From Bacilli bacterium (lineage in GTDB: Bacteria; Bacillota_I; Bacilli_A; RFN20; CAG-826), in the NCBI GenBank assembly GCA_024408655.1, contig JAKSUV010000007.1:1-45521 (forward strand): a stretch of DNA of 45,521 nucleotides, read 5' to 3'. The notes beneath the pieces are model-generated. The model worked only from the letters and a program-made list of their open reading frames with translations. It made no database searches and was not told where the DNA came from. Positions 794 through 42,508 of the stretch are shown one piece after another. The first letter of the stretch is position 1. Every line of letters begins with the position of its first letter. Both the position numbers and the translations under genes were made by a program.

Positions 794-1858
794 TTAGATT
801 ATAGCACTTACTTTTAAAGCGGTGGCAAATGCCCACATAAGATTAAAGCCCCCACATAGACCATCTTGGTCTAAGGCTTCACCAATAATATAAACATTTG
901 ACTCAATTTTTGATTTAAAGTTTTGATCAACATCCTTTAAAGAAACACCACCAATCGTCGCCACACTATCGTGGTAGTTAGCGATATCTTTAACATGGAA
1001 GGTGACATGTTTAGGATTTTTATAGGGCTTTAGGTAAGAGGCTAACGCGGGTGAAAAATAATCCGTTAATGAGCCCACGAAACGTTCGTGTGGTAAAAAA
1101 TCAATAACGACTTCTGGCGCCTTCAAAGCGAAGCGTGTCACTTGACTACTCACGTGATAAATTACGATTCCGCTTAAGCCGTCATTTTTAAATAAAAGTT
1201 CCCCATCTTCATCAAGGTGAACTTGATGATGATCGAGTAAAGTGACATGGACTTTGCGGCGAATACCGCTAACTGATTTAGTTTTTTCAATCGTTTTAAT
1301 TGGTGTGAGTCCAGGACGTAATGAAACAATATGATAGCCATGTTTTGCTAAATTTAAAACGAAACTCGCATCCGCGCCAAGTTGTGGTTGACTCGCTAAG
1401 CCCGACGCAATAATTAATCGATCAAAACTAATCTTACCTTTATCAGTTATTAATACATTATTTTTATAATCAATTGCTTTGGTTTCACTTTGATAAATTA
1501 CACCTAAGGCTTTGCCTTCTTTAATTAAAGTATCGGTAAAAGCGTTCGCTGATTCACTATAGGGATATACATAATCACCATCGTGCATCGTGGCAATATG
1601 ATGCGTATGGAAAAACTTTAGTAATTTTTCGCGAGTAATATCGTGGAAGAGATTTTGGGCAACTATTTCGTGTTGATAGCGGCCTTTTAAATTACCAAGG
1701 TTTAAAATATTCGCTTTGCCGTTTCCGGTCGCGCGTAATTTCTTACCTAACTTGGGATTTTTATCTACCACCGTGACCATGTCACGCGGATGTTTTTCTT
1801 TAAGGGCGAGAGCGGCAAGTAAGCCAGCGGCCCCGCCACCCACAATTACAATCTTCAT
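794..1858 (-). CDS. BaiN/HI0933-type FAD-dependent oxidoreductase
   Basis: A flavoprotein of the HI0933/YhiN/BaiN family, cytosolic, with uncertain physiological substrate (members are annotated as aminoacetone oxidase-like or bile-acid reductase-like). The N-terminal Rossmann motif GGGAAGLLAAL (about residues 7-17) binds the FAD ADP moiety. The family signature LRATGNGKANILNLG follows at about 40-56, where most homologues have GNGRCN; here a K-A replaces R-C. The C terminus has IIGEALDQDGLCGGFNLMWA, the second FAD contact. At 354 residues it is slightly shorter than the usual 390-420. Its ATG overlaps the stop of the upstream ABC gene (TAATG), so it is translationally coupled to the exporter pair. 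Substrate specificity cannot be read from sequence. Confidence 0.85.
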   Translation of the reverse strand: MKIVIVGGGAAGLLAALALKEKHPRDMVTVVDKNPKLGKKLRATGNGKANILNLGNLKGRYQHEIVAQNLFHDITREKLLKFFHTHHIATMHDGDYVYPYSESANAFTDTLIKEGKALGVIYQSETKAIDYKNNVLITDKGKISFDRLIIASGLASQPQLGADASFVLNLAKHGYHIVSLRPGLTPIKTIEKTKSVSGIRRKVHVTLLDHHQVHLDEDGELLFKNDGLSGIVIYHVSSQVTRFALKAPEVVIDFLPHERFVGSLTDYFSPALASYLKPYKNPKHVTFHVKDIANYHDSVATIGGVSLKDVDQNFKSKIESNVYIIGEALDQDGLCGGFNLMWAFATALKVSAII

Positions 1859-3768
1859 TATTCGAGTTCAAACGCCCCAGTATAAAGTTGATAGTAGACG
1901 CCTTTCTTCTCAATTAATTCGTTATGGGTACCACGTTCAATAATCTTACCATGGTCAAGCACGACAATCGCGTTACTATTTTGAACGGTGGATAAACGGT
2001 GGGCGATAACAAAGGTCGTCCGGTTCATCATAATTTGGTCCATCCCTTTTTGAACGAGGAGTTCAGTTCTTGTATCAATTGAGCTCGTGGCTTCATCAAG
2101 AATCATCACTGGGACATTCGCGACCGCGGCCCGAGCGATATTAATTAATTGGCGTTGACCTTGGGAGAGGTTCGCTCCATCACCACTCAGCATTGTATTA
2201 AAGCCGTCGGGTAAACGCATAATAAAGTCGTAGGCATTAGCAATCTTTGCTGCCTTAATGACTTCTTCATCACTCGCGGTAAGTTTTCCATAACGAATGT
2301 TATCCATCACGGTGCCGGTAAATAAGTTCGTGTCTTGTAAGACAACGCTTAAGGAACGACGTAAGGATGACTTTTTAATCTTATTAATGTTAATGCCGTC
2401 GTAACGAATCTTCCCGTCTTCAATATCGTAGAAGCGGTTAATTAAATTGGTAATTGTGGTCTTACCAGCGCCCGTCGCCCCAACGAAGGCAATCTTTTCA
2501 CCCGGCCGGGCAAAAATGGTGACATCATGTAAGATCCGGTGGCCAGGATTATAGGCAAAGTCAACGTGGCTTAATAAGATATCGCCTTCAAGTTCCGTAT
2601 AAGTAAGTGAACCATCTTTATGTGGATGTTTCCACGCGAAGAAACCAGTTTCTTCCACGGTTTCCACGAAACTTCCATCACGCTTATATTTAATGTTCAC
2701 TAAAGTGACATAGCCATCATCGGTTTCACTCTTTTCATCAAGTAAGTCAAAGGCCCGAGATGCACCGGCGCTACCTAAGAAGATCATCGAGAGTTGTTGG
2801 CTCAGGTTATTGACATTATTAGAGAACATTCTCGCCATCATTAGGAAGGTCACAATCATTGGCACTCCAACCTTATAGCCAGGTAAGATTGAAATATTTG
2901 GTACCTTAAAAACAACAAAAAGAGCGCCGGTAATCGCTAAGATCACGTAAAGAATATTACCGATGTTAATAATTACTGGCGTGAGCATGTTACCAGCGGT
3001 ATTGGCTTTAATACCATCTTCGGATAAGGCGTCGTTAAGAATGGAGAAATCATATTCGCTTTTTTCTTCGTGTGAGAAGACTTTAATGACCTTAAGGCCA
3101 TTAATTGCCTCTTCAATATGACCTTCGACGACACCAAGTTTCTCTTGTTGTTTTCTAAAGTATTTTGACGATCTCCGGCCAATGCGTTTGGCCGCAATAA
3201 GAATCGCCACTGCCGCCGCTAAAACGACTAAGGTTAAATAAATCGATAGGCAAAGCATAATAATAAAGAGGGCCGAAACAATGACACCCGTTTGGAACAC
3301 ACCTGGCAATGATTCACGGACAATTTGCCGCAAGGTATCAATATCGTTCGTATAAATCGACATGATATCGCCTCGCTTGTGAGTATCAAAATAACGAATC
3401 GGTAACGTTTCCATGTGTTCAAACATCGCCATCCGGATTTCGGCTAAGAAGTCTTGAGTAACAACCGACATCGCAATGTTAGCAATGACGGCGCCGATTA
3501 CACCTAGACCATAAACAACACCCATAATGATTAAATACTCAGTCATCCTGGCCCAGAATTCAGCTTCCGTAATTAATCCCTGAATGCCTTGCTCGATACA
3601 TTCGGTAACTAAACCAACAAAGATCGGTGCACCAAAGGTGGAGAAAGCCATCACCACTACAAAGAAGAGAACGGTAAAAACACCAAGCGGATGTTGTTTA
3701 CATACCATTTTAATGAGGCGGTTAATGGTGCCTTTTTTGCCTTTACCAGTTGGCATCGCGCGTGGCAT
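1858..3768 (-). CDS. ABC exporter half-transporter, catalytic partner (heterodimer subunit B)
   Basis: A 636-residue half-ABC exporter: about six membrane helices (residues 30-340) followed by a nucleotide-binding domain. Walker A GATGAGKTT starts near 430, the signature is LSQGQ near 534, Walker B MILDE has the catalytic Glu near 559, and the switch His is in IAHRLST near 590. An extra charged stretch (about 345-395) sits between the membrane domain and the ATPase. The partner gene just upstream has Asp and Gln at the catalytic positions. This deviated LSQGQ fits the degenerate ATP site of a TM287/288 or BmrCD-like heterodimer, in which only one site hydrolyses ATP. Its ATG overlaps the stop of the partner (TAATG). 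Drug or lipid export is likely; the substrate is unknown. Confidence 0.93.
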   Translation of the reverse strand: MPRAMPTGKGKKGTINRLIKMVCKQHPLGVFTVLFFVVVMAFSTFGAPIFVGLVTECIEQGIQGLITEAEFWARMTEYLIIMGVVYGLGVIGAVIANIAMSVVTQDFLAEIRMAMFEHMETLPIRYFDTHKRGDIMSIYTNDIDTLRQIVRESLPGVFQTGVIVSALFIIMLCLSIYLTLVVLAAAVAILIAAKRIGRRSSKYFRKQQEKLGVVEGHIEEAINGLKVIKVFSHEEKSEYDFSILNDALSEDGIKANTAGNMLTPVIINIGNILYVILAITGALFVVFKVPNISILPGYKVGVPMIVTFLMMARMFSNNVNNLSQQLSMIFLGSAGASRAFDLLDEKSETDDGYVTLVNIKYKRDGSFVETVEETGFFAWKHPHKDGSLTYTELEGDILLSHVDFAYNPGHRILHDVTIFARPGEKIAFVGATGAGKTTITNLINRFYDIEDGKIRYDGININKIKKSSLRRSLSVVLQDTNLFTGTVMDNIRYGKLTASDEEVIKAAKIANAYDFIMRLPDGFNTMLSGDGANLSQGQRQLINIARAAVANVPVMILDEATSSIDTRTELLVQKGMDQIMMNRTTFVIAHRLSTVQNSNAIVVLDHGKIIERGTHNELIEKKGVYYQLYTGAFELE

Positions 3769-5543
3769 TAGATTCCCCCTCCTTCCTGTTGACTCGCTTT
3801 ATTTTGCGTATGATAAACTTCTTGATAAATTTTGTTGGTTTTTAAAAGTTCTTCATGGGTCCCAATTTGATCGATGTGCCCATTATCCATAACGATAATT
3901 TGGTCCGCATCGCAAATGCTTGAAGTCCGTTGAGCAATAACAATCTTGGTGGTTTCTGGTAACTGGGTTTTAAGCGCCTTTCTAATTAACGCATCAGTTT
4001 TGGTATCAACCGCACTTGTCGAGTCATCAAGAATTAAAATCTTCGGTTTCTTTAATAAGGCACGAGCGATACAAAGACGCTGTCTTTGACCACCACTAAC
4101 GTTGGTGCCACCTTGTTCAATATAGGTGTTATATTTTTCTGGGAACTGTTGGATGAATTCATCAGCTTGGGCAATTTTTGCCGCCGCTAATAATTCGTCA
4201 TCAGTCGCATTTAAATCACCCCAGCGAAGATTTTCGGCAATGGTGCCAGAGAAGAGAACGTTCTTTTGTAACACCACTGCGACATTATCCCGTAAGGTGC
4301 GTAAGTCATAACGATCAACCGAATGCCCACCGACGATAAGTTCACCCGTTGAGATATCGTATAGACGCGAAATTAAGTTAATTAAAGATGTTTTGCCTGA
4401 ACCGGTTGAACCAATAATCCCAATGTATTGGCCGGACTTAATGTCTAAATTAATTTCGTCTAAGGCGTTACGTTTCGCTTTTTCAGAATACTTAAAGGTC
4501 ACGCGGTTAAATTGGACTGCGCCATTTTTTAATTGCATGACTGGATTCTTGGGATTTTTAATTGTGCTTTCTTCGCGTAATACTTCGCAAATCCGGCGCA
4601 TACTTTCTAAGCTCATTGATAACATACCTAAGATAATTGTCACCATGAGAAGCGCCATTAAAATCTGAACACCATAGGTGAGCAAAGAAGATAATTGTGG
4701 AACATTGATTTCTACCCCACCTGATTCATAGGCAATCCAAGCCCCAATGCCACACACTAAAATATTGACGAGGTTAATCGAAAGGCTCATCATTGGCGAA
4801 GCAAACGAGACAATGATTTCCGCTTTCTTAAAGTCATCCCGCACATCATCAGTTGCCCGCGCCATCTTTTTGACTTCATAATTTTCCCGGACAAAGTTCT
4901 TCACCACGCGAATCGCAGCCACGTTTTCTTGGATGGATTCATTTAATTTATCGTAGCGTTTAAAGACCCGGTTAAAGATGCGGGTTGCGTACTTAATCAT
5001 GAGGAAGAAAGCTAGACATACAAGTGGGATAACCGCGATAAAAATCCACGCCATCCGACCACCCATCACGAAACTTAACACCGTCGAGAAAACGAGCATC
5101 AATGGCGCTTTCACTACAACGCGAATCCCGATGTTAAAAGTCATGAAGGTATTGGTTACGTCGGTTGTTAAACGCGTTACTAAACTCGAAGTTGAGAAAC
5201 GGTCAATATTCGCGAAGGAAAAAGATTCTATCTTTTTAAAGACATCTAACCGGAGGTTTTGAGCTAAGCCAACTGAGGCTTTCGCCGAAGTTTTTGAACC
5301 TAAGAATCCAGCAATTAAGCTCACAATCGCGACCGAAATAAAAATACCGGCCTGGATACTAAATTGCACAAAATCGATTGTTTCGGTTTGCTGGTAGTCT
5401 TGAATTAAGCTGATAAAACGCGCCATAATAATCGGCAAGGCGCATTCACAAGCGGATTCAAGAATCATTAAAACCGGCGTTAAAATCGCATAAACTTTAT
5501 GTTCACGAAGACTGTGTAAAATAAGTTTAAAGTTCTTAAACAT
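3768..5543 (-). CDS. ABC exporter half-transporter, degenerate-site partner (heterodimer subunit A)
   Basis: A 591-residue half-ABC exporter and the first gene of the pair. The membrane domain has about six helices, then an ATPase with Walker A GSTGSGKTS near 378, an intact signature VSGGQ near 482, and Walker B ILILDD in which the catalytic Glu is replaced by Asp (about 507). The switch residue is Gln instead of His (IAQRTSS, about 538). These two substitutions mark the degenerate subunit of TM287/288-type exporters. The start codon lies only 10 nt after a TATCAT box, and only AAGG directly abuts the ATG. The mRNA is therefore probably nearly leaderless. The gene is followed without gap by its catalytic partner and by a flavoprotein gene. 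Confidence 0.93.
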   Translation of the reverse strand: MFKNFKLILHSLREHKVYAILTPVLMILESACECALPIIMARFISLIQDYQQTETIDFVQFSIQAGIFISVAIVSLIAGFLGSKTSAKASVGLAQNLRLDVFKKIESFSFANIDRFSTSSLVTRLTTDVTNTFMTFNIGIRVVVKAPLMLVFSTVLSFVMGGRMAWIFIAVIPLVCLAFFLMIKYATRIFNRVFKRYDKLNESIQENVAAIRVVKNFVRENYEVKKMARATDDVRDDFKKAEIIVSFASPMMSLSINLVNILVCGIGAWIAYESGGVEINVPQLSSLLTYGVQILMALLMVTIILGMLSMSLESMRRICEVLREESTIKNPKNPVMQLKNGAVQFNRVTFKYSEKAKRNALDEINLDIKSGQYIGIIGSTGSGKTSLINLISRLYDISTGELIVGGHSVDRYDLRTLRDNVAVVLQKNVLFSGTIAENLRWGDLNATDDELLAAAKIAQADEFIQQFPEKYNTYIEQGGTNVSGGQRQRLCIARALLKKPKILILDDSTSAVDTKTDALIRKALKTQLPETTKIVIAQRTSSICDADQIIVMDNGHIDQIGTHEELLKTNKIYQEVYHTQNKASQQEGGGI

Positions 5544-5860: not shown

Positions 5861-6097
5861 TTATTTATTGTGCGCTACTTTGGCCTCAAGTGCCGCGTAT
5901 AAGTCTTGCACTTTTTTGAGTGATTTTAACTCATCGTTATTGAATTGAATATGGAATTCATTTTCTAAGGCCAAGAGCATTTCTACGATATCTAATGAAT
6001 CTAAACCAAGTTCCCGTAGCTCTTTCGTTGGATCAACCGTTTTAACTTTTAATTTTTTCGCTAAAACTTCTTCCGCTTTTGCTCGTATTTCGTTCAT
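5861..6097 (-). CDS. acpP: Acyl carrier protein
   Basis: A 78-residue acidic acyl carrier protein that holds growing acyl chains on a 4'-phosphopantetheine arm for fatty acid or phospholipid synthesis. The attachment serine is in LGLDSLDIVEMLLALE (about residues 31-46), preceded by a helix and followed by the recognition helix of the family. The protein is full length. An AAAAGGAG ribosome site and its own promoter (6121-6150) precede it. It is not next to other fatty acid genes; upstream is the TadB/C-like operon and downstream are two tRNAs. Confidence 0.93.
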   Translation of the reverse strand: MNEIRAKAEEVLAKKLKVKTVDPTKELRELGLDSLDIVEMLLALENEFHIQFNNDELKSLKKVQDLYAALEAKVAHNK

Positions 6098-6120
6098 ACG
6101 TTCTCCTTTTTCTGCTTACT

Positions 6121-6150
6121 ATTATATTACAAAGTAATATATTTAAGCAA
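6121..6150 (-). promoter_or_regulatory. Promoter of acpP
   Basis: On minus, -35 TTGCTT (6145-6150), 18-nt spacer, -10 TATAAT (6121-6126), 24 nt before the ATG. The -35 overlaps the stop region of the upstream gene. Confidence 0.7.
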
Positions 6151-6490
6151 ATAGGCCAATCACGACGCTGCGCTCAACACTAATGTGGTTTTTATTTTTC
6201 CCTAAAACAATTGGTAGATACTCTTTATCGATAACGTAAGGATAAGTGTCACCAACTTTTACCACTGTTCCTTCGGGTAAGGTGGTATAGATAACCGCGT
6301 TAATTTCTTTTTTCACATAGGCTTGGATATCTTTAGTAATGCCACCGTCTTTACTAATATAGTAACCAACGGTCATCGCCACATTATCAAGTTGATCATA
6401 AATCATTTGTACACCAAGTAGATCACTCATGAGTAATATAGCAATCGTGGTTAAAAGCATTGAACCCATAAAAATAATCCGCTTAGCCAT
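6143..6490 (-). CDS. Small single-pass membrane protein, TadE-like
   Basis: A 115-residue protein with one N-terminal membrane helix (about residues 5-27) and a short outside domain. The segment LGVQMIYDQLDNVAMTVGYY just after the helix resembles the region of TadE-like pseudopilins where the helix continues into a Y-x-Q-L-x-N-A motif. This is similarity by eye only. It is the last gene of a tight operon after two T2SSF-topology proteins, overlapping the upstream gene by 8 nt, with ribosome site AGGAGAG 7 nt before the ATG. That neighbourhood is the main reason to suggest a minor pilin role. Alternatively it is a lineage-specific membrane-anchored protein. Confidence 0.55.
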   Translation of the reverse strand: MAKRIIFMGSMLLTTIAILLMSDLLGVQMIYDQLDNVAMTVGYYISKDGGITKDIQAYVKKEINAVIYTTLPEGTVVKVGDTYPYVIDKEYLPIVLGKNKNHISVERSVVIGLFA

Positions 6491-7139
6491 GTAGATACTC
6501 TCCTACTAACAAAATAATGGCGATAATGACCATGATAAGGACTATCGAAACACCGACAATCGCTGTGGATTTAGCGAAATCAAAACGAGTTTTTATTCGT
6601 TCTTGCGCTTTTTGTTCACTACTTGTTTTGAGTTTTAAATATGCTTCGTTAAAAATCTTTAGATTTTCTAGTTCCGGTTTTTTCGCGTAACGATATAAGG
6701 CGACCATCACCTCTTCGAGTAAGATTGATGGGAATTGATGCGCGAACGCAAGGTATGGCGTGACATCATTAGCTTGGCTTTCTAATAGATTAACTAATAA
6801 CTCGTTTAAATGAAGACTTGCGTAACTCTTTAATTGTTCAAGTGCTTCTTTCACATTAAGTCCATTATTTAAATCGACATAAAGATAACGAAATAATAGA
6901 CTCACTTCGTGAATCGCGTTGTCTTGCCGAAGATCACGGTAATAATAAAACCGCCAAAGATCCGCCAAATCTAACGCGATGATAAGAAAAATAAATGGTG
7001 CGGTTAATAAAAGACTATGGGTAAAGATATAAGTAATAACACCTGATACCACTAAAATCGCATCAATAGTGAGAATGACGGTTATTTCAAAGTTAAAGCG
7101 GAGACCGGCGTCCGCGACTAGACGTTTAATTTTACTCAT
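6483..7139 (-). CDS. TadC-like inner-membrane protein (T2SSF-type topology)
   Basis: A 218-residue protein. Two membrane helices near the N terminus (about 20-60), a cytosolic helical domain of about 120 residues, and a C-terminal membrane helix (about 190-214). The cytosolic part has the look of a type II secretion F domain: FRYLYVDLNNGLNVKEALEQ, then repeated amphipathic helices ending in FPSILLEEVMVALYRYAKKP. TadB and TadC, the platform proteins of Tad pili, have this architecture but are usually larger (about 280-320 residues). It overlaps the upstream TadB-like gene by 8 nt and has a GGGAG ribosome site. No secretion ATPase is in the window. Confidence 0.6.
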   Translation of the reverse strand: MSKIKRLVADAGLRFNFEITVILTIDAILVVSGVITYIFTHSLLLTAPFIFLIIALDLADLWRFYYYRDLRQDNAIHEVSLLFRYLYVDLNNGLNVKEALEQLKSYASLHLNELLVNLLESQANDVTPYLAFAHQFPSILLEEVMVALYRYAKKPELENLKIFNEAYLKLKTSSEQKAQERIKTRFDFAKSTAIVGVSIVLIMVIIAIILLVGEYLHG

Positions 7140-7824
7140 GGTGAAGACTCCCTTGTTTCGTGTACGTAAATAAATACAAGCTCATTAAGAAGAAAGCGTA
7201 ATAAATCACTAGACCAACGAGATACACCCAGGTGGTCGAAATATTCGCGAATTGGTTAGCGATGGCAAACCTTAGAATAATCAGAATTAAAAAGGAAACT
7301 GTCCATAACAGGATAAACTCCGCTAACGCTTTGTGCGTTTGTTTATCCACCAGTTTCCTTTCATCCAGAAGGCGGTCATTTTCCTCTAACAAAAAGTTCG
7401 CGCTCACTAACAAATCACTTTTTTCTTTGACCGCAAGTTTTAAATTATCAAGAAATAATAAATAAATGGGATGATGGAAATAGCTACTTAATTGCTCTAG
7501 GCGTTCCATCACGGGGTACTCTTCAGTAAGTTTGAGGTGTTCCACTAAGGCATAACTAACATTTAACGTGGATTGATTTAATCCTTCTGTTAAGTCGTTA
7601 TTTTTGGCGTAGCCATAAATAAAATCATGGATAAAGTAATTTAAATCATTGGCGAGGGTCTTCGCCTGTTTTTGCTTACGACTCATCATCCGTTCGTAAA
7701 GGAAGAAATAACTAAGAAAAATCGCTAACACCGCCGCGGCGAAAATAATACTCCCACTCATTAAGAAACTTGAGGCGGCCACCGCTAAAGAAACCGCTAC
7801 ATAAATTAAATATTCATTCAGCAT
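7132..7824 (-). CDS. TadB-like inner-membrane protein (T2SSF-type topology)
   Basis: A 230-residue protein with two N-terminal membrane helices, a cytosolic helical region of about 110 residues (about 45-160), and two C-terminal helices, ending in a basic tail. This 2TM-cytosol-2TM plan is that of TadB/TadC platform proteins of type IV filament systems; primary similarity is weak, so the call rests on topology and on the adjacent TadC-like gene. The ATG at 7824 overlaps the preceding TGA stop by 11 nt, with ribosome site CGGAGA 6 nt upstream. The pair would form the membrane platform of a small filament or secretion machine. Confidence 0.55.
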   Translation of the reverse strand: MLNEYLIYVAVSLAVAASSFLMSGSIIFAAAVLAIFLSYFFLYERMMSRKQKQAKTLANDLNYFIHDFIYGYAKNNDLTEGLNQSTLNVSYALVEHLKLTEEYPVMERLEQLSSYFHHPIYLLFLDNLKLAVKEKSDLLVSANFLLEENDRLLDERKLVDKQTHKALAEFILLWTVSFLILIILRFAIANQFANISTTWVYLVGLVIYYAFFLMSLYLFTYTKQGSLHHE

Positions 7825-8212
7825 AATTTGTCTCCGTAATTAAATAATTCATCGCCTTATAGTAATCACTTGTAAATGGTACTGCTGCGCGTAAAGATAA
7901 ACGAACACCTGAAACATAACGACCTTCAACTTCCTCCATTGTTTCCGCGTCAAAATAATAAAATCCGATTTGGTAACGATCAATCACGCCTTTTAGGTTA
8001 TGCGAAAGATGCTGAATACTTGTCGTTTCCACAAGATATGTATCATATAAAGGCGCTTCTAGTTCACCTTCGACATCGGTCACTACCCATAAATCGGGTA
8101 AGGCATAATTAAGTGAAGTAAACGCGTGATCGATACTATGATAAACGGTTGAACTAACTAAGGAGACGCTCCCAAGTAATAAACCCCAAATTGCCACTAA
8201 TAACAAAATCAT
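7814..8212 (-). CDS. Small membrane-anchored exported protein, possible pseudopilin
   Basis: A 132-residue protein whose first 22 residues form a membrane helix (MILLLVAIWGLLLGSVSLVS) with no basic leader, followed by a soluble outside domain. Not recognised as a family. Its place between a secreted protein and the TadB/TadC-like pair suggests a minor pilin or assembly factor. The start ATG overlaps the upstream stop as ATGA, and its own stop is TGA inside the start region of the next gene. These two TGA stops in coupled genes are good evidence that TGA is not read as Trp here. Confidence 0.5.
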   Translation of the reverse strand: MILLLVAIWGLLLGSVSLVSSTVYHSIDHAFTSLNYALPDLWVVTDVEGELEAPLYDTYLVETTSIQHLSHNLKGVIDRYQIGFYYFDAETMEEVEGRYVSGVRLSLRAAVPFTSDYYKAMNYLITETNYAE

Positions 8213-9246
8213 AGTTCGACCTCGTAGACATGTTCTTTTACGTTATTGCCATAGTCCATTTCGCTTTCGATACAATAAGCGCTATCGTTACAATGGCCAA
8301 AGAATTTCTTTTCGTATTTAAGGGAGAACGTCGCGCTGATGTTATAGTCAAAGAAACTATCAACATCAATGTTAATAAGACAATTAATATCATTTAATTG
8401 ATCCGCGTAGCGTTTTGGGAAATAAAGGAAAGAAGTTCCGCGATACCCTTCTTCATAAATCATGGAAGATTGATAAGTGGTTGGTTGAAAATAAAGTTGA
8501 GCCCCAAAGGCAAAATGGTAGTAACCATCGCTATCCGCGTAGATAGTTAATGGAATACTCCGAAACATCGTTTCTTCTTGGATGGGGAAACCCGGAAATA
8601 AATTAAAAGCGTCATAAAAGCTAAAGCGACAAGTCGCATTTAAAGTTTTTCCTTTTGAGTTATGGTAGGTAAAACGGAACCGACGAATATCAAAATATTT
8701 ATAGACTGGTTCCACCACCGTTTCTTCAAAGTTATCAAAGATAAAGTAGTCTTCACTAATCTCGTAACCACGAAGCATCGTATAGATTTCTTTATAATAA
8801 CCGCTATTAAGTGGCTTATGATTATGTTTCTCCTCCACTTCCAGATATTTTTCCCCACTCGGACGATAATGAACCGTCTTCTTTTCACTTGTATAACTAG
8901 GATCACTAGTCGTAATCGCGAATGTAAAAGCGTTATCTTTCCCAATTTGAGTCGCCTTTAATTCGTAGTCAGGAAGCTCACCATCACTAGGAATACCCGA
9001 TGGAAAAGTCTCTTCTTCTAATAAAACAGAATCACCATCATCAACCGTGTGGAAAAGCTGAAAGGTTACTTTATAAGTACTCTTATTTTTCTTATAGTAA
9101 GTGGCATGAATAATTAAGCCACCACTACTCGTATCGCGATAACTTAATTCTTTTACCCGTACCGCGTAGTCATTCATTGGCGTCGATGCACTCGTTAAAG
9201 CCGCGAGCGTTAGTCCAAAAGTTAATTTAAGCATTTTGTGCCACAT
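8209..9246 (-). CDS. Secreted protein of unknown function in the Tad-like operon
   Basis: About 345 residues. The start is taken at the ATG at 9246 because AGGGGG lies 6 nt before it; an upstream GTG at 9261 has no such site. A signal peptide is visible (MWHKMLKLTFGLTLAALTSA, cleavage near ASTP). The mature part is rich in aromatic residues and alternating polar/hydrophobic stretches, which suggests beta structure, with cysteines near the middle and the C terminus. No LPXTG, lipobox or C-terminal anchor is seen. Not recognised. It is coupled to the next gene by an ATGA overlap and overlaps the preceding gene by 20 nt, so it belongs to the same machine; a secreted or filament-associated subunit is one reading. 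Confidence 0.6.
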   Translation of the reverse strand: MWHKMLKLTFGLTLAALTSASTPMNDYAVRVKELSYRDTSSGGLIIHATYYKKNKSTYKVTFQLFHTVDDGDSVLLEEETFPSGIPSDGELPDYELKATQIGKDNAFTFAITTSDPSYTSEKKTVHYRPSGEKYLEVEEKHNHKPLNSGYYKEIYTMLRGYEISEDYFIFDNFEETVVEPVYKYFDIRRFRFTYHNSKGKTLNATCRFSFYDAFNLFPGFPIQEETMFRSIPLTIYADSDGYYHFAFGAQLYFQPTTYQSSMIYEEGYRGTSFLYFPKRYADQLNDINCLINIDVDSFFDYNISATFSLKYEKKFFGHCNDSAYCIESEMDYGNNVKEHVYEVEL

Positions 9247-9601
9247 ATAAAGCCCCCTCACTATTTACTAAACGCACTTTTTTAAGATTGTTAATAAAAC
9301 CCGCAATCGCTTCTTTTTTAAAGATGCGGTATTGTTTCTTGTTATAAAATTCTTCCCACCAAAATGAATAATTCTTGTAGAAATATTCATACTTAATGAT
9401 CTTGCGGAGATGATAAGGTAAAGCGAAGTAACAAGTTTCGACCCCTAAAATAAATTGTTCCCACGGATAATGTTCTCGGCACGCATTACTGACAACATCA
9501 TAAAACTCTAGTTCTTGGTTATAATCCGGAAAGAAATTATGTTTCCGTAATAATTGATGATAAGTCTTCGCGACTAGACGAATGATTTTCTCTTCTTCCA
9601 T
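9227..9601 (-). CDS. Cytosolic protein of unknown function, first gene of the Tad-like operon
   Basis: About 124 residues. An in-frame ATG exists at 9616, but the ribosome site AAGGAG lies between it and the ATG at 9601, so the latter (MEEEKIIRLVAK) is the probable start. The protein is helical, aromatic and basic, without a signal or membrane segment. A region with YEYFYKNYSFWWEEFYNKKQ suggests a compact helical bundle. I do not recognise the family. The next gene overlaps its end by 20 nt. An inverted repeat and a weak -10 lie just upstream (9617-9644). Confidence 0.6.
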   Translation of the reverse strand: MEEEKIIRLVAKTYHQLLRKHNFFPDYNQELEFYDVVSNACREHYPWEQFILGVETCYFALPYHLRKIIKYEYFYKNYSFWWEEFYNKKQYRIFKKEAIAGFINNLKKVRLVNSEGALYVAQNA

Positions 9602-9616
9602 AAATTGCTCCTTCAT

Positions 9617-10034: not shown

Positions 10035-12440
10035 CTAATTATAGTAATACTTATTACCAGCAGTTGGGGTGCCATCAAAAGATCCACCAGTGCCATTAAA
10101 CATACGATGAACAGCGTCCTCAGGAATTTGAGATGGACATTCAAATATTAGTGTATTTCCTTCTTTTTCACTCACATTTAAGGAAGTGCAACCGTAGAAC
10201 ATGTCATAATAACAGAAATCCGCTAATGTGGTTGCGGGTAAAGTGGGTGCTTGGGCGAGAGAAGTGCAACCTTGGAACATAGAGTTGTAACAATCTTTTG
10301 CTAATATGGTTGCGGGTAAAGTGGGTGCTTGGGCGAGAGAAGTGCAACCTTGGAACATTTGTGAGCAGCAGGAATCCGCCAATGTGGTTGCAGGCAAAGT
10401 GGGTGCTTGGGTGAGAGAAGTGCAACCGTAGAACATAGAGTAGTAACAACGATCCACTAATGTGGTTGCGGGTAAAGTGGGTGCTTGGGTGAGAGAAGCG
10501 CAACCGCGGAACATTTGTGAGTAGCAGTAATTCGCTAATGTGGTTGCGGGTAAAGTGGGTGCTTGGGTGAGGGAAGTGCAACCGTCGAACATAGACATAT
10601 AACAACTATTTGCTAATGTGGTCGCAGGCAAAGTGGGTGCTTGGGCGAGAGAAGTGCAACCTTGGAACATTTGTGAGTAGCAGGAATGCGCTAATGTGGT
10701 TGCGGGTAAAGTGGGTGCTTGGGTGAGAGAAGCGCAACCGTAGAACATTTGTGAGTAGCAGTAATTGACTAATGTAGTATCAGGCAATAGCAAATTATAT
10801 GATGAGACTAGATTTTTGAAATCTTTAAATACGCATTCAAAACTGTAATCGCTAAAAACTCCACTAGGCAGTATAGATTTACATAAGCCGCTCGTTTCGA
10901 AATCTGATGATTCATTAGAATCAAATACATTTTTAAAATCATAAGAGACGTTGTTTCCCTTAACAAAAATTCTTACACCTCGATTAACAGTAACATTTTT
11001 TGTTTCTTCTGTAACATTAACCCAATTATCACTACTAGAAATTTTATAGCGTAAATCTCTACTGCCTTCATTGATGATTAACGTCGCATTATCGTTTCGT
11101 GGGGTGAAGGTTAAATATTCTTCAGATGTTGGAGCGTACACCGCTTCTAATTCAACTGCATCATTGATTACAGCATCTTCGGCTATCATCGCACCATTAA
11201 TCGTCCAATAAAGGAAATCATTCATTGGCTTAGCGCCACCAATTAGTCTTTCTTCTAAATCTCCCCAAGTTGCTCCTTTTTCTACTTCAAAAGAATAATA
11301 GCGATCACCATCGGTTGTTTCAATAAAACCAGAACGTCCAGCGTCTAATGTAATAGTAACTTTGTTACTATTTTCAATCCATTTAGCGTATAAGGTGAAA
11401 CTACTAGAAACATGAGTCTTAGTGAAATTAAATTTATTTTTGAAAGTCTCATCATCTAAATACCAACCATTGAAAACATATCCATCTTTAGTAGGGTTAC
11501 TTGGAGCGCTTATAGTCGCGCCTATTTGAATGCCGGTTATAGATTCAACAGCTGAGCCTTCATTGGAATCAAAATCAACAGTTAAAAATTTACCGGCACT
11601 TGCTTGAATAGAAGTAGCATCCTTTAATTTAAAAGATAGTGTATAAGTACCATCATCATTAAGTGTGTATTGATAATCAGTGCCTTTAACACCGATTTTA
11701 TCACCAATCTTAACCTTTATATCTTCTGGTAAAGTTAGACCATCATTTGGTGTTAAAGTGAAAGAATAGGGAGAACCTATATCACCAGTTAAGATAAACA
11801 TATCGCTATCTTGGTCATATCCTTTAGCGGTACAACCAATACCTTTAAAGCTGATTTGGTTCTCACTAATCGCCGTTGCTGATATCTCAACATCTTCTGT
11901 CATACTAGAGATAGTAATAATGTTATTAGTTTCATCAACATCGACTATATCTTCACCTTTAGTAACTTTAATTAATGAAACCTTTTTATCAGCTGCAGGA
12001 ACAATAGTAAATTTAACGTTTTCCTTAAGATAATGAATTTTAGAATTATAGTTAGTTTCACCATTAATCGTACAATCGGTACCAATGAATTTAAAATCAT
12101 ATTCCTCTTGGTATGTTTTAGTACATTCAGCTGTAATCTCGATATCTTGAGTAATTGGATCAGGGAAAGAGATAATACCGCGACTATATTCAAAATCAAT
12201 ACCACCACAATCAATATCATCTTTGGTAGGCATTAAATATGTAGCATCTGCTTGGATGGTATATTTTAAGTCGGTTTTACCTGAAATAACAATATCGTTA
12301 AACTCAGATTCACCATTAATTTTACAATGAGTACCTACAAAATGGACTTTGTGCGTACTAACTTCGTTAATTGCACTAGTCGCGCTAATAGAAAAGAAGG
12401 AGGATCCTACTAATAATATTTGAAATATTTTGTTATTCAT
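10035..12440 (-). CDS. Large secreted surface protein with InlB-like and BspA-like repeats
   Basis: About 801 residues. The ATG at 12440 is preferred over 12449 because AGAGG is 9-10 nt before it and directly abuts the earlier one. Order: signal peptide (MNNKIFQILLVGSSFFSISA); three beta repeats of about 75 residues, each starting with an F-x-G-x-x-C-x-x-x-G-like motif; an InlB/Flg_new-type repeat with FDSNEGSAV and GYVFNGWYLDD ending LYAKW; a variant of it ending VEAVYA-like; a linker; then eight 26-residue repeats with consensus TLAxxCYxxMFxGCxSLxQAPTLPAT. The C terminus has MFNGTGGSFDGTP and ends YYYN. Such BspA-like repeats occur on surface proteins of gut bacteria and their phages and are thought to mediate adhesion. 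There is no LPXTG. It follows the related lipoprotein gene with a ribosome site overlapping that gene's stop. Confidence 0.85.
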   Translation of the reverse strand: MNNKIFQILLVGSSFFSISATSAINEVSTHKVHFVGTHCKINGESEFNDIVISGKTDLKYTIQADATYLMPTKDDIDCGGIDFEYSRGIISFPDPITQDIEITAECTKTYQEEYDFKFIGTDCTINGETNYNSKIHYLKENVKFTIVPAADKKVSLIKVTKGEDIVDVDETNNIITISSMTEDVEISATAISENQISFKGIGCTAKGYDQDSDMFILTGDIGSPYSFTLTPNDGLTLPEDIKVKIGDKIGVKGTDYQYTLNDDGTYTLSFKLKDATSIQASAGKFLTVDFDSNEGSAVESITGIQIGATISAPSNPTKDGYVFNGWYLDDETFKNKFNFTKTHVSSSFTLYAKWIENSNKVTITLDAGRSGFIETTDGDRYYSFEVEKGATWGDLEERLIGGAKPMNDFLYWTINGAMIAEDAVINDAVELEAVYAPTSEEYLTFTPRNDNATLIINEGSRDLRYKISSSDNWVNVTEETKNVTVNRGVRIFVKGNNVSYDFKNVFDSNESSDFETSGLCKSILPSGVFSDYSFECVFKDFKNLVSSYNLLLPDTTLVNYCYSQMFYGCASLTQAPTLPATTLAHSCYSQMFQGCTSLAQAPTLPATTLANSCYMSMFDGCTSLTQAPTLPATTLANYCYSQMFRGCASLTQAPTLPATTLVDRCYYSMFYGCTSLTQAPTLPATTLADSCCSQMFQGCTSLAQAPTLPATILAKDCYNSMFQGCTSLAQAPTLPATTLADFCYYDMFYGCTSLNVSEKEGNTLIFECPSQIPEDAVHRMFNGTGGSFDGTPTAGNKYYYN
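10153..10776 (-). repeat. Eight tandem 78-bp repeats inside the surface-protein gene
   Basis: The phrase GTTGCGGGTA or close variants recurs on plus at 10231, 10309, 10387, 10465, 10543, 10621 and 10699, exactly 78 bp apart. Each unit encodes 26 residues with a C-Y-x-x-M-F-x-G-C core. Long identical stretches between units would permit slipped-strand or recombinational change of copy number in whole codons. The terminal units are the most diverged. Confidence 0.95.
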
Positions 12441-12452
12441 AATTATCATCCT

Positions 12453-13892
12453 CTAGTTGTAATAATAATAAGAGCGACCTCTCTCTGGAGTGTCATCCTC
12501 TAGAGGCCCTCCAGTACCCAAAAACATACACTCAAAGCATCCTTCAACTGCGGCATGTTGAGGCACTTCAAAAAACTTAGTATATATATCACTTTCAATG
12601 TCAGTAGTTGGATGACGAGTTAATTTTAAATTACTACAACCTTGAAACGTCATTAAGCAAGAAGCGTCTTGAAAAGAGGTTGCGGGTATTTTAGGAGCAG
12701 TAATTGTGTATGTGTCTGAAAACATTAGCGCATAACAACGGATAGATAAAGTAGTTTTAGGTAATAATAAATTATGAGCACATATCACATTAAAATCCTG
12801 AAACAAGTTGGAGTAAGCACTGTTAGGCAAAAGGGTCGGCTCTTGAAATAACGATCCACATAAACCACTAACGCTAAAATAACTACTGCTACCAAACATC
12901 GCTTGTCCAATGGCTTCATCATCAGACCCTTTAATATAAATTTGCTGACCATATTCTAAGTCGACATCAGTGCCACTAGTAAACGGTGTCCAACCAGTAT
13001 CACCGGTCCTTTGATAAGAGAAGGTTCTAGTTCCATCTCCTGGCGGATTAATGGTTAAAGTCGCATTGCTTCTAGGAGTAAGGGTTAAATATTCTTGAGA
13101 TACGCCTGCATATCGTGCTTGCAATGTGGTTGATTCATTAAATACATAATCGTCTGAAATAGGGTTAACACCATCAAGCGTCCAACATAAGAATTCAAGA
13201 TTATTAATATATCCACCATAGATACGATTAGCAATATCTTTCCATTTTTTGCCCTTAGTAATCCCTAATTCATATTTTCTTTCAAAATTACTCTCACACA
13301 AACCGTGCGCCCCAGCATCAAACGTTAAAACAATATCAGTCGATACCCATTTAGCGTGTAATTCAACATTTTCATAAATTGCGGTGGTTGCAAAATCAAA
13401 CTTATATTCAAAGGTATCGTCATCATAGTACCAACCATCAAATGCATAATCACTACGAGTAGGATCTGTAGGCGGATTAGTTATTTCACCTTCAATAACC
13501 GAAATTGCTTGAACTGCACTTCCACCATTTGAATCAAATGTAATATCATATTTAGTTTTCTTAGGCTCTGCTTCAATGCCAATAACTGTTTCTCCTTTAG
13601 GGTTAAACTTTAAAATATAGTTGCCAGTACTACCGTCAGGAAGATAAGAATAATCACTCGGGTCGGCGGTCACATTATTAATTTTGAAATTAATATTGTT
13701 AGTTAATTCATAACCACCGATCGGCACAATTGTAAATTGTAAACTATCAGTGTTAGTCGCAGTAATATTGAATATATCTTGAGAGGTGATACCTGCTCCA
13801 GTCGCCGTGCAATTAGTGCCGCTAAAACTGATGTTATATTCTTCTTTAAATTGTTCAGTCGTACTAGCAGTGATTGATATATTATTAGTCAT
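12453..13892 (-). CDS. 3' part of a frameshifted surface lipoprotein (InlB-like and BspA-like repeats)
   Basis: Open frame of 479 codons. It starts at an ATG that falls inside a beta repeat (MTNNISITAS), with no ribosome site and no signal peptide. It is best read as the continuation of the lipoprotein that starts at 14431, after a 1-bp loss near 14185. Contents: the end of beta repeat 2, beta repeat 3 (YNISFSGTNCTATG), an InlB-type repeat with FDSNGGSAV and WYYDD ending LHAKW, a variant one, and about two degenerate BspA-like units (CYALMF, MTFQGCSNL). The end MFLGTGG ... YYYYN matches the end of the 801-residue neighbour, so the two are paralogues; this one has a much shorter repeat array. 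A TAGAGG site overlapping its stop serves the next gene. Confidence 0.7.
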   Translation of the reverse strand: MTNNISITASTTEQFKEEYNISFSGTNCTATGAGITSQDIFNITATNTDSLQFTIVPIGGYELTNNINFKINNVTADPSDYSYLPDGSTGNYILKFNPKGETVIGIEAEPKKTKYDITFDSNGGSAVQAISVIEGEITNPPTDPTRSDYAFDGWYYDDDTFEYKFDFATTAIYENVELHAKWVSTDIVLTFDAGAHGLCESNFERKYELGITKGKKWKDIANRIYGGYINNLEFLCWTLDGVNPISDDYVFNESTTLQARYAGVSQEYLTLTPRSNATLTINPPGDGTRTFSYQRTGDTGWTPFTSGTDVDLEYGQQIYIKGSDDEAIGQAMFGSSSYFSVSGLCGSLFQEPTLLPNSAYSNLFQDFNVICAHNLLLPKTTLSIRCYALMFSDTYTITAPKIPATSFQDASCLMTFQGCSNLKLTRHPTTDIESDIYTKFFEVPQHAAVEGCFECMFLGTGGPLEDDTPERGRSYYYYN

Positions 13893-14431
13893 CTCACTGA
13901 TAGTGATAACACCGGTTGTGTTATCATAATTAACTTTGCCTTCCGGCTCAACTTTGGTTGGTAATTTATATCCAATATCAGGAGAAATTGTGTATTTAAT
14001 ATTTTTTCCGCCTTTTTCAATCGTATCATCAAAGTCTTTAATGCCGCCGATACTACAGTTTGTGCCCTCAAAATGGAATGCACAATAACTTTCATCAAGA
14101 ATTGCGGTTGCGGTAATTTTTTTAATATCCTTAGTAACTTTATTAATATTAATAACACCAGTATCCTTATCATATTGATAAGTATACCTTCTGGCATGCC
14201 AATTGTTTCTGGTAAATTATATCCATCACTAGGGACAATCGTGTATTTCGCGTTCTCTTTATCTTTTATTACAGCATCAGAAAAGTTAAAGTCACCATTA
14301 ATCGTACAAAACTCACCTTCGAAGGCAATATCATATGTATCTTTAGTGGGTTCAGGAGAAGGATTCCCACCGCAACTCGCTAAAAGAGAAACGCTCATGA
14401 ATGAGATCGCGAATAAGCCAAGTTTTTTCAT
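13889..14431 (-). CDS. 5' part of a frameshifted surface lipoprotein
   Basis: The first 80 or so codons are real: MKKLGLFAISFMSVSLLASC with lipobox LLAS-C (Cys20), then the first beta repeat with FEGEFCTING and YTIVPSDGYNLPETIGMPEG. After that the frame gives low-complexity I/L/K/R-rich residues, while the -1 frame continues the repeat pattern (YTYQYDKDTGVINI, later IKYTISPDIGYKLP) without a break into the frame of the 12453-13892 segment. Loss of one base in GGTTAT (now GGTAT, about 14184-14187) explains it. The intact protein would have about 659 residues. Its ribosome site AGAGG lies in the 3' arm of the hairpin at 14440-14500. Sequencing error, pseudogene or on/off switching are all possible. 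Confidence 0.7.
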   Translation of the reverse strand: MKKLGLFAISFMSVSLLASCGGNPSPEPTKDTYDIAFEGEFCTINGDFNFSDAVIKDKENAKYTIVPSDGYNLPETIGMPEGILINMIRILVLLILIKLLRILKKLPQPQFLMKVIVHSILRAQTVVSAALKTLMIRLKKAEKILNTQFLLILDINYQPKLSRKAKLIMITQPVLSLSVR

Positions 14432-26743: not shown

Positions 26744-28552
26744 TTAGGCGTCAGCGAATTGGGAATTATATAATTCCGCGTAAAAACCTTTCTTCTTAAG
26801 AAGTGATTCATGGTTACCGTGTTCAACAATATCGCCTTGGTCAAGCACGAAAATTACATCCGCGTTCTTAATCGTGGATAAACGGTGGGCAATAATAAAA
26901 CTCGTCCGCCCTTTGGTGAGTTCATCCATTGCTTTTTGGATGACAATTTCGGTCCTAGTATCCACGCTACTAGTGGCTTCATCAAGAATCAGTAACGGGG
27001 CGTCTTTAATAATGGCCCGGGCAATCGTTAATTGTTGTTTTTGTCCTTCGGACAAGTTGAGTTTATCATCAAGCATGGTGTCATAGCCATGCGGCAAAGT
27101 TTTAATAAAGTGATCAAGCCCCACCGCTTTCACCACTTCGTCTAATTTCTCATCGCTTACATGTTTTTTGTTATAAACGAGGTTTTCTCTTACGGTTCCA
27201 GTAAAGAGCCAAGTGTCTTGTAAAATCATATTAAATAATTCGTGGACGCGCTCACGCTTTAAGTCTTTGGTGGAAACACCATCAATCTTAATATCACCCG
27301 AATTTAGTTCATAGAAGCGCATTAATAAATTAACAATCGTGGTTTTACCCGCCCCCGTTGGTCCAACAATCGCAATCTTTTGACCAGGTTTAATATGCGC
27401 GGTGAAACCATGAATAATTTCTTTGTTTTTAACATAACCAAAGCGGATTTTATCAAAGATAACTTCGCCTTTAATCGTCTTTAATTTATTTTGTTTATGC
27501 TCTTCGTTACTAAGCTCAGTTTGTTCAAGTAACGCAAAGACTCGTTTACTGGCCGCACTAGCTTGTTGAATGGAGGTCATTGATTGAGCGAAGGTCGATA
27601 ATGGTTGAGCGAATAAACGTGAATAGATGACGAAGGAAAGAATTGTGCCAAGAGTGACTAAGGTACTGCCATCAATAATAAACATAATGCCGAAGACGAA
27701 GATTAACACATAGGATAAATTACCGGCGAACACCATGATGTGCATATTCATACCTGAGAGAATCTGTGACTTCCAGTTATCTTCGTATAGGCAATTATTC
27801 GTTTTAATAAACTTCGCTCTTTCAAACGCGTTAGCGGCGAAGATTCGCACAATCTTATGATTAGTAAAGACTTCTTCAATTTGTCCATTCATCGTGCCTA
27901 AATCATCTTGCTTCCGGTTAAAGTATTTTTGTGATTTAGCGAGCACAAACGCCATCGCAATAAAGCCGACGATAGAAGAACCAATTGTAATAAAAGCGAG
28001 AATCCAGTTACTTCTAAACATCATCACAATGGTGCCTAAGAATAAGGCGAATGAACTAATTAAGTTCGCGACTGAACTCGCAAGCGTTTGACTAATCGCA
28101 TCTACGTCGTTAGTCACGACTGATAAGGTATCGCCAATCGTCGTAGTATCAAAATAATTCAAAGGAATTTTGTTAACTTTATCACTAATATCACGCCGTA
28201 AGCGGTAGCTAATATATTGCGTCACGTTGGCCATGATTAATTGTTGACCATAGGATAGAAGTGCCCCACCAACATATAAACCAACTAATAAATAGGCGAT
28301 GGCTAAGAATTCATCCATATCAACGCCTTCTGGACGAGTAATGCCGTTAGTAATAATGTTGACTAAATCTTTAACTTTTTCAGGACCAATCACGGAACAA
28401 ACGGCGCCACCGATGGCTAAAATAATCGCGACAATAATCGCGGGTAAATAGCGTTTACCATACACCACAATCTTTTTGAGGGCATGAAAATCCGCTTTTT
28501 CTTTTGGTCCCGAACCTCGCCGGGCGTGCATACCACCCATCATCCCCGCCAT
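26744..28552 (-). CDS. ABC exporter half-transporter, catalytic partner (second heterodimer)
   Basis: 602 residues: an M/G/R-rich N terminus, about six membrane helices, then the ATPase with Walker A GPTGAGKTT near 397, signature LSEGQ (deviated) near 500, Walker B LLILDE with catalytic Glu near 525, and switch His in AHRLST near 556. This is the catalytic subunit of a heterodimer whose signature faces the degenerate site of the partner at 28552-30312. Its start overlaps the partner stop. Organisation and substitutions mirror the first exporter pair (1858-5543), so the two systems are probably ancient paralogues. Substrate unknown. Confidence 0.93.
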   Translation of the reverse strand: MAGMMGGMHARRGSGPKEKADFHALKKIVVYGKRYLPAIIVAIILAIGGAVCSVIGPEKVKDLVNIITNGITRPEGVDMDEFLAIAYLLVGLYVGGALLSYGQQLIMANVTQYISYRLRRDISDKVNKIPLNYFDTTTIGDTLSVVTNDVDAISQTLASSVANLISSFALFLGTIVMMFRSNWILAFITIGSSIVGFIAMAFVLAKSQKYFNRKQDDLGTMNGQIEEVFTNHKIVRIFAANAFERAKFIKTNNCLYEDNWKSQILSGMNMHIMVFAGNLSYVLIFVFGIMFIIDGSTLVTLGTILSFVIYSRLFAQPLSTFAQSMTSIQQASAASKRVFALLEQTELSNEEHKQNKLKTIKGEVIFDKIRFGYVKNKEIIHGFTAHIKPGQKIAIVGPTGAGKTTIVNLLMRFYELNSGDIKIDGVSTKDLKRERVHELFNMILQDTWLFTGTVRENLVYNKKHVSDEKLDEVVKAVGLDHFIKTLPHGYDTMLDDKLNLSEGQKQQLTIARAIIKDAPLLILDEATSSVDTRTEIVIQKAMDELTKGRTSFIIAHRLSTIKNADVIFVLDQGDIVEHGNHESLLKKKGFYAELYNSQFADA

Positions 28553-40715: not shown

Positions 40716-40770
40716 AAAAAATCTATCTATTATAGATATATTATACTATGTATAATAAGGCAAAAATCAA

Positions 40771-41853
40771 CTAATGTTTTTGTTCGCAATAGATGCACTT
40801 AAATTCGCCTTTTTTATTGGTCGGGACGAATTTATGTTCGTGCTCTTGTTCGATGCCAGAAATGCAACGTGGATTTTTGCACTTTAAATCGTAGCGGACT
40901 TTCTTCTTATCGTATAAGGGTTCTTTCTTCGGATTCTTTTTCGCCAACGCTAAGAGTTTAAGAATTAACGCCATCCGAATATATTTTCCGTTTAGCGTTT
41001 GCCGGAAATACGCCGCGCGTGGATCATCATCGACCTTCACACTAATTTCGTTCACGCGTGGTAAGGGGTGAAGAATGCGTAAACTCTTCTTGGCCTTTTT
41101 TAATTTATCAACTGTTAAGACATAAGAATTCTTTAGGCGTTCATATTCTTTTTGGTCAAAGAATCTTTCACGTTGAATCCGGGTCATATAAAGAATATCT
41201 AAGTCTTTAATGTTATCTTCTAGGCTCGTCACTTCTTTATATTTCATATGGTTCTTTTTAATGATATCATTAATGACATAGTCAGGCATCTTTAATTCTT
41301 TCGGCGAAATTAAAACGAGCTTAATATTTTTATAACGTGACATCGCTAAAGTTAACGAGTGAACGGTGCGACCATATTTAAGATCACCACACATCCCAAT
41401 AGTGAGATTATTAAATCCTCCTTTCTCACGATAAATCGTTAATAAATCCGCAAGCGTTTGGGTTGGGTGAGCGTGCATGCCATCGCCAGCGTTAATGACG
41501 GGAACATTCGCCGCTAAGGCGGCCACTAAACCTGCACCATCTTTGGGGTGACGAATCGCAATGATATCCGCAAAATTAGAAACCACTTTGCAAGTATCCG
41601 AAACGCTTTCCCCCTTTGCGCTACTACTTGAAGTAGCTTCGCTAAAGCCTAAAACATTACCACCTAATTCCATCATCGCCGCGGTAAAAGATAAACGCGT
41701 TCTTGTTGATGGCTCAAAGAAAAGCGTCGCGAGTTTTTTACCTTCACAAGCGTGAGCGTATTTCTTCGGATGCTTAATAATGTCGCAAGCGGTTTTACAT
41801 AATTCGTCTAATTCTTTGACGGATAAATCTTTAATATCAATTAAACTACGCAT
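40771..41853 (-). CDS. pyrB: Aspartate carbamoyltransferase with C-terminal PyrI-like zinc domain
   Basis: 360 residues. The catalytic part (about 1-305) has the carbamoyl-phosphate motif [11 protein letters not shown] (about 46-56), [13 protein letters not shown] and HPLPRV. The last about 40 residues read KCKNPRCIS ... [10 protein letters not shown], with Cys at 325, 330, 353 and 356. The spacing 5/23/3 is nearly that of the zinc site of PyrI (109, 114, 138, 141 in E. coli). The N-terminal nucleotide-binding domain of PyrI is missing. So this looks like a catalytic chain with only the zinc module fused on, which in E. coli links regulatory to catalytic chains. AAAGGA 5 nt before ATG. Last gene of the operon, 2 nt after pyrE. 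Confidence 0.95.
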
Positions 41854-41855
41854 AA

Positions 41856-42497: not shown

Positions 42498-42508
42498 TGT
42501 CTTTCTCC

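Follow-up and report, generated by a model that had tools for sequence, protein, structure and literature searches.

What does the platform of a type IV filament machine do in a genome in which no motor for it is found? The question is raised by a 45,521-nt stretch of DNA from a Bacilli bacterium (contig JAKSUV010000007.1; hereafter the window), which carries a compact operon of six open reading frames on its minus strand (6143–9601). In order of transcription, these encode a small cytosolic protein, a secreted protein, a single-pass protein, two platform proteins, and a second single-pass protein (genes 1 to 6; Table 1). Successive genes overlap by 35, 4, 11, 8, and 8 nt, in agreement with an original prediction, made from the sequence alone, of six overlapping or nearly touching genes. 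The arrangement is not due to chance, since the same genes occur in the same order in nearly all of the 42 relatives examined and all six are under purifying selection. We propose, with moderate confidence, that the operon descends by reduction from a Tad-like type IV filament machine and that it likely works as a static surface complex.

Platform fold of genes 4 and 5

The original prediction had described genes 4 and 5 as a TadB/TadC-like platform with topologies of two transmembrane segments (TM), a cytosolic domain and two further segments (2TM-cytosol-2TM) and 2TM-cytosol-1TM, respectively, and hydropathy concurs with both. Searches with Pfam T2SSF (PF00482) gave an E-value of 0.0018 for gene 5 (18.7 bits, below the curated cut-off of 25.2) and no match for gene 4, and sequence profiles of the two families found no convincing relative in the PDB; fold comparison alone identified them. 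AlphaFold2 models built with alignments of 22 relatives had mean predicted local distance difference test scores of 89.2 (gene 5) and 86.7 (gene 4). The eight best rows for gene 5 in VIA-align were PilC, EpsF, SpoIIIAB, OutF, and TcpE entries and a type IVa pilus machine model (Z 10.3–7.9, root-mean-square deviation 2.4–3.1, 91–112 residues), with the PilC, EpsF, SpoIIIAB, and OutF folds at Z 10.3–9.4 (SpoIIIAB, Z 9.8) and the first unrelated row at Z 6.6. For gene 4, the five best rows were OutF, PilC, and EpsF (Z 7.9–7.6), followed by the first unrelated row at Z 5.9. Helical domains often give middling Z values; the top rows nonetheless belonged solely to the T2SSF superfamily, which Foldseek alone also ranked first (gene 5, E 0.09, probability 1.00; gene 4, E 0.6, probability 0.96). 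The two platform families were homologous to each other in an hhalign profile comparison (95%), which parallels the kinship of TadB and TadC in Tad systems. By their models, genes 4 and 5 encode T2SSF-fold platform proteins, and the fold expected earlier was borne out for both.

Loss of ATPase and pilin-like gene in the window's genus

A profile search with gene 5 found matches in 63 of 95 relatives, and gene order was compared across 42 loci, 37 outside the window's genus and 5 inside (some of the family counts below refer to 22 loci). The shared order is cytosolic protein, secreted protein, single-pass protein, ATPase, platform protein 1, platform protein 2, TadF-like protein, and pilin-like protein; an acyl carrier protein often comes next. 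Both the ATPase and the pilin-like gene were present in every examined locus outside the genus, except that genome G051 lacked the pilin-like gene. The operon is thus kept throughout the family.

The ATPase of the relatives (~310–360 aa) is seated between the counterparts of genes 3 and 4. It matched TIGR03819 (TadA family) in all 16 members (best E-value 9.7e-40) and Pfam T2SSE in 15 of the 16, and its relatives of solved structure were 2oap, VirB11, and CpaF (CpaF at 1e-27); it is of the TadA/CpaF class. The pilin-like gene follows the gene 6 counterpart and begins MSEIKGQLLGILLVLAIFG..., and its products of ~50–70 aa (45–86 aa as called) start MSEIKGQLLGILLV and have no head domain. The leader of the family's pilin-like protein comprises only six residues, MSEIKG. 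No Pfam pilin family matched these proteins; their size, KG-hydrophobic N-terminus, and position suggest a pilin. Because the relatives hold a TadA/CpaF-class ATPase and a short pilin-like gene within the operon, the operon appears to be of Tad-like descent. A link to competence was also considered and set aside: no tie was seen, ComEC (PF03772) being present in some genomes with the full operon and absent from others.

The window's genus is represented by five draft genomes with completeness values of 67, 85, 81, 90, and 86%. The window is contig 8 of the 67% complete genome, a 913-kb draft whose nearest relative is G003 (gene 5 protein 90% identical); a single-protein scan of genome contigs returned this near-twin as the sole match. 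Profile searches for the ATPase and for the pilin-like gene came back empty in all five (0/5 each). Pfam T2SSE exceeded its cut-off in none of the five versus three of three positive controls, and only short P-loop fragments below the cut-off, like those of control genomes, were seen in the genus. As the ATPase profile also detects PilT, PilB, GspE, and VirB11, a borrowed motor of that class should have shown. An assembly gap at the ATPase position was ruled out, since genes 3 and 4 adjoin or overlap at this junction in all five genomes. The earlier remark that no ATPase or prepilin peptidase lies nearby holds across the whole genome as assembled. The accompanying suggestion of a motor encoded elsewhere fell away: no T2SSE-type ATPase was found in the five genomes, and relatives carry the motor inside the operon, with the major pilin-like gene lost alongside it.

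A survey of 156 family genomes revealed platform and ATPase together in 134, neither in 12, the ATPase only in 5, and the platform only in 5. The last group consisted of four genus members and G134, whose platform begins at base 414 of a contig that lacks the upstream part. In the rest of the family, loss usually takes platform and ATPase together, and the base alone stays only in this genus, the edge case of G134 aside. In a tree of the concatenated retained proteins, the genus formed one clade (ultrafast bootstrap [UFBoot] 100) nested among ATPase-bearing taxa (99), and members of other families of the order, also ATPase-bearing, fell outside. Because the genus is nested inside ATPase-bearing taxa, the absence of ATPase and pilin is derived; the genome counts are not independent and probably reflect one loss event.

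The platform proteins themselves differ in this genus. Platform protein 1 has a Gly-Gly pair in its cytoplasmic domain at 37 of 37 non-genus loci and at none of the five genus loci, and in platform protein 2, 8 of 20 strongly conserved columns had lost the conserved residue across the whole genus. Both changes fit relaxed motor-side contacts.

Decay was also observed in a second genus. G051 (96% complete; locus L043, G051:C1:248000–267500), the genome without the pilin-like gene, has an intact platform pair and an ATPase frame in which the Walker-B region reads LIFNDIS (LIVAExRG in others), the TTxH motif has become GTFS, and the Walker-B Glu is gone; the enzyme is predicted to be catalytically dead. 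Its genus mate G029 (99% support) has an intact operon. Because G051 is decayed while G029 is intact, inactivation has begun at least twice, with G051 as an independent, earlier stage of the same loss. A placement of G051 as sister of the window's genus (UFBoot 69) was dropped, as adding G029 grouped G051 with its own genus (99).

Searches with PF01478, the A24 prepilin peptidase profile, found no match in 34 family genomes or in 30 searched genomes holding both ATPase and pilin-like gene, and were positive in control genomes and two relatives. The sole matches in the order were in G064 (G064:C14 near 39879–42840) and G077 (G077:C3 near 89637–101298), on the same contigs as weak, different ATPase matches; these contigs probably represent canonical type IV pilus loci. 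With E-values up to 10 allowed, the peptidase search returned only a candidate without GxGD and one negligible match; the former, a weak A24 match (E about 0.1) found in G000 and G003, was rejected for want of that motif. The pilin-like protein may either retain its short leader or be processed by a peptidase beyond the PF01478 profile. TadZ and other accessory Tad proteins were not recognized in the operon, and no profile search was aimed at them. The loss of the platform motif, the parallel decay in a second genus, and the lack of a recognizable peptidase even where motor and pilin are present go beyond the original prediction.

Selection on the retained genes and their possible role

To assess selection, ratios of nonsynonymous to synonymous divergence (dN/dS) were determined for the window versus G003 and for G004 versus G001, the latter pair with synonymous sites near saturation, most so in gene 1. 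Values for the six genes were 0–0.15 and 0.01–0.19, respectively. The proportion of nonsynonymous differences in gene 1 was 0 versus the near-twin, and the two ratios were 0.15 and 0.10 for gene 2, 0.04 and 0.08 for gene 3, 0.06 and 0.11 for gene 4, and 0.11 and 0.19 for gene 5. Gene 6 (0.006 and 0.05) was the most constrained of the operon, being 99% identical though 43% of synonymous sites differ. Purifying selection acts on all six retained genes and the operon is not decaying; these ratios rule out a pseudogene remnant.

Among the non-platform genes, gene 2 was found in 20 of 22 loci, with a C-terminal GxC..S..C motif in 12 of 37 members, and its product is a candidate tip or cargo protein. 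Gene 3 was kept in all 22 loci; its family had no convincing Pfam match, TadE and TadF included, and in layout it is pseudopilin- or TadE/F-like and may be related to pilins. The gene 6 family matched TadF in 3 of 22 members (best 2.5e-4, weak) and TadE in 1. The gene 1 protein, which has a conserved Trp-Trp ... TYYR-like C-terminal motif and resembles small helix-turn-helix regulators, belongs to no Pfam family (best DUF1492, E=0.16, in one relative).

Compared with known systems, the operon is close in its parts to the Tad (type IVc) pilus of monoderms, with which it shares two separate platform proteins and small single-pass proteins that are TadE/F-like mainly in layout. In relatives, a TadA/CpaF-class ATPase adjoining the platform genes and a pilin-like protein that is very short and has no head domain are further common parts. 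It differs in that no TadV-type peptidase was found, the platform proteins are only ~220–230 aa, the genus has no ATPase or pilin, and the 350-aa secreted protein and the small cytosolic protein are fixed members. Because neither ATPase nor pilin nor A24 peptidase was found in the genus, its operon is not a Tad pilus system and is classed here as a Tad-derived complex. With the GspF/PilC proteins (EpsF, OutF, PilC) of type II secretion and the type IVa pilus, it shares the helical cytoplasmic domain fold between membrane segments, whereas here the platform is split over two genes, with one T2SSF domain per protein, and the genus has no GspE/PilB partner. SpoIIIAB, a T2SSF-like platform outside a pilus, is a precedent for reuse of this fold in a non-pilus complex, although the SpoIIIA complex keeps its ATPase SpoIIIAA and has other partners. 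The Com pilus, described as the minimal type 4 filament, of pilins, peptidase, ATPase, and platform (PMC10191384), is likewise a very small gene set of a monoderm; of these four core parts, however, platform and minor-pilin-like proteins alone remain in the genus.

We suggest that the family ancestor encoded a TadA/CpaF-class ATPase and a pair of half-size platform proteins, together with two single-pass proteins resembling minor pilins, one large secreted protein, and a pilin-like protein of very small size, and that the ancestor of the window's genus cleanly lost the ATPase and the short pilin-like gene while the six others stayed under purifying selection. Without motor and major subunit, filaments would not be built in the usual way. 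The platform pair would instead serve as a membrane anchor for the two TadE/F-like proteins, which would display the Sec-exported gene 2 protein at the surface as an adhesin, receptor, or envelope factor; the result would be a pilus tip held on its base with no shaft. Loss of the Gly-Gly pair may then reflect release from a contact needed only by the motor or a moving pilin. The reduced filament or secretion system of this lineage envisaged in the original prediction would take the form of a reduced Tad-derived complex particular to the genus, its relatives still having ATPase and pilin.

Several points weigh against this explanation. The static mechanism is inferred, and the complex may draw on a non-T2SSE energy source. 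The resemblance of genes 3 and 6 to minor pilins lies mainly in their layout, given weak TadF/TadE matches. All five genus genomes are incomplete drafts (67–90%), two of them near-twins, and the Gly-Gly change may be drift, and part of the platform changes divergence, along the long branch at the base of the genus.

The best of the alternatives, which we regard as unlikely, is a machine that is still dynamic, in which ion motive force acting via the platform, or an unrelated nucleoside triphosphatase, moves a short pseudopilus of minor-pilin-like proteins. The platform protein PulF is reportedly a trimeric channel that endopilus assembly requires, membrane potential having been proposed as the source of power (PMC10790770), and the strong constraint on gene 6 is in line with such a role. 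That channel, however, was described for GspF/PilC proteins that still possess an ATPase partner, and here the major subunit is also gone. Slightly less probable is recruitment of the platform and small proteins to a different membrane task unrelated to pilus-tip display, such as an envelope or lipid-linked complex. The loss of motor, pilin, and Gly-Gly motif together would suit it, but gene 2 and genes 3 and 6 (the last two minor-pilin-like), which are found in motor-bearing relatives, are all kept in order, so that the tip-like part seems to be what is retained.

It is very improbable that ATPase and pilin are hidden in assembly gaps, or are encoded elsewhere in a form too diverged to detect. 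The five genomes are incomplete, but relatives carry both genes within the operon, all five genomes have the operon in one unbroken stretch free of gaps, and the profiles detect distant families; were the genes elsewhere, the chance of missing a gene in all five would be about 1e-4 (from completeness values, independence assumed). A functionless remnant on its way to loss is just as improbable: the decay of the G051 ATPase and the 12 family genomes without both parts are what it would lead one to expect, but the frames are intact in five genomes, with 30–40% identity between some, the dN/dS values are low, and platform and ATPase are mostly lost together elsewhere in the family. A SpoIIIA-type sporulation channel, whose SpoIIIAA ATPase and SpoIIIAB platform belong to the same superfamilies and whose SpoIIIAB is among the gene 5 structural matches, was ruled out as an identity by the ATPase profiles (NCBIfam spore_III_AA in 3 of 16 relatives' ATPases, best 8e-5, versus TadA in 16 of 16, about 1e-40), and the operon has two platform genes and no Spore_III family among the Pfam matches listed.

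Returning to the static Tad-derived complex, every type 4 filament system has pilins, peptidase, ATPase, and platform according to a review (PMC10191384). The loss of a platform homologue in some Tad systems and MSH loci without their own peptidase are on record (PMC6668835). Searches of a library with few subscription papers gave no account of a platform retained in the absence of any motor and no papers on surface machines of these reduced-genome gut Bacilli; no report of pili in this lineage or of Tad pili in RF39 was found, and papers on related orders were silent on pili. On balance, the evidence somewhat favors a type IV filament base that has kept working over the lifetime of a genus without motor ATPase, major pilin, or recognized prepilin peptidase, with its platform adapted to the lack of a motor, alongside a family-wide Tad-like machine that has motor and pilin and no A24 peptidase. 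The genus would offer a lineage in which selection maintains platform and minor-pilin-like proteins alone; a second, independent case is at an earlier point of decay, and many sister taxa that still have the motor can serve as controls. This makes testable the lone role of platform and tip proteins and which platform residues serve the motor, and the family would provide a Tad-like system without a recognizable peptidase in reduced-genome gut Bacilli.

Feature coordinates and neighboring genes

Table 1. Positions in the window of the operon genes, the altered sites, and the adjoining gene
Feature	Position	Strand	Remarks
Gene 1, small cytosolic protein, 124 aa (ATG 9601) or 129 aa (9616)	9227..9616	-	Heads operon in most relatives
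Gene 2, secreted protein, 350 aa	8209..9261	-	N-terminal signal-like stretch; 17.7% F+Y+W
Gene 3, single-pass protein, 132 aa	7814..8212	-	Hydropathy: one N-terminal hydrophobic segment and outer domain
Gene 4, platform protein 1, 230 aa, 2TM-cytosol-2TM	7132..7824	-	TadB position of tad operons
Gene 5, platform protein 2, 218 aa, 2TM-cytosol-1TM	6483..7139	-	TadC position of tad operons
Gene 6, single-pass TadF/TadE-like minor-pilin-like protein, 115 aa	6143..6490	-	One N-terminal hydrophobic segment
Gly-Gly motif site of platform protein 1, residues 135–136	7417..7422	-	Lys-Ser here
ATPase junction of relatives	7814..7824	-	Genes 3 and 4 overlap by 11 nt here; no remnant
Pilin-like gene site of relatives	6098..6142	-	45-nt gap here, between gene 6 and acyl carrier protein gene
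Acyl carrier protein gene	5861..6097	-	Pfam PP-binding 2.6e-12; adjoins operon in most relatives

The acyl carrier protein gene is a conserved downstream neighbor that probably does not belong to the machine. A gene for a secreted repeat protein of 804 aa (10035–12449) lies upstream of the operon and shares its strand; within this gene, a 78-bp tandem array (10183–10775) encodes 'MFxGCTSLAQAPTLPATTLAxxCY' repeats. A second protein with the same type of N-terminus (12453–14431) looks frameshifted: a lipoprotein start at 14431 runs into low-complexity sequence, and the homologous frame continues at 12453–13892. The window also contains two head-to-tail pairs of ABC exporter genes (1858–5543 and 26744–30312).

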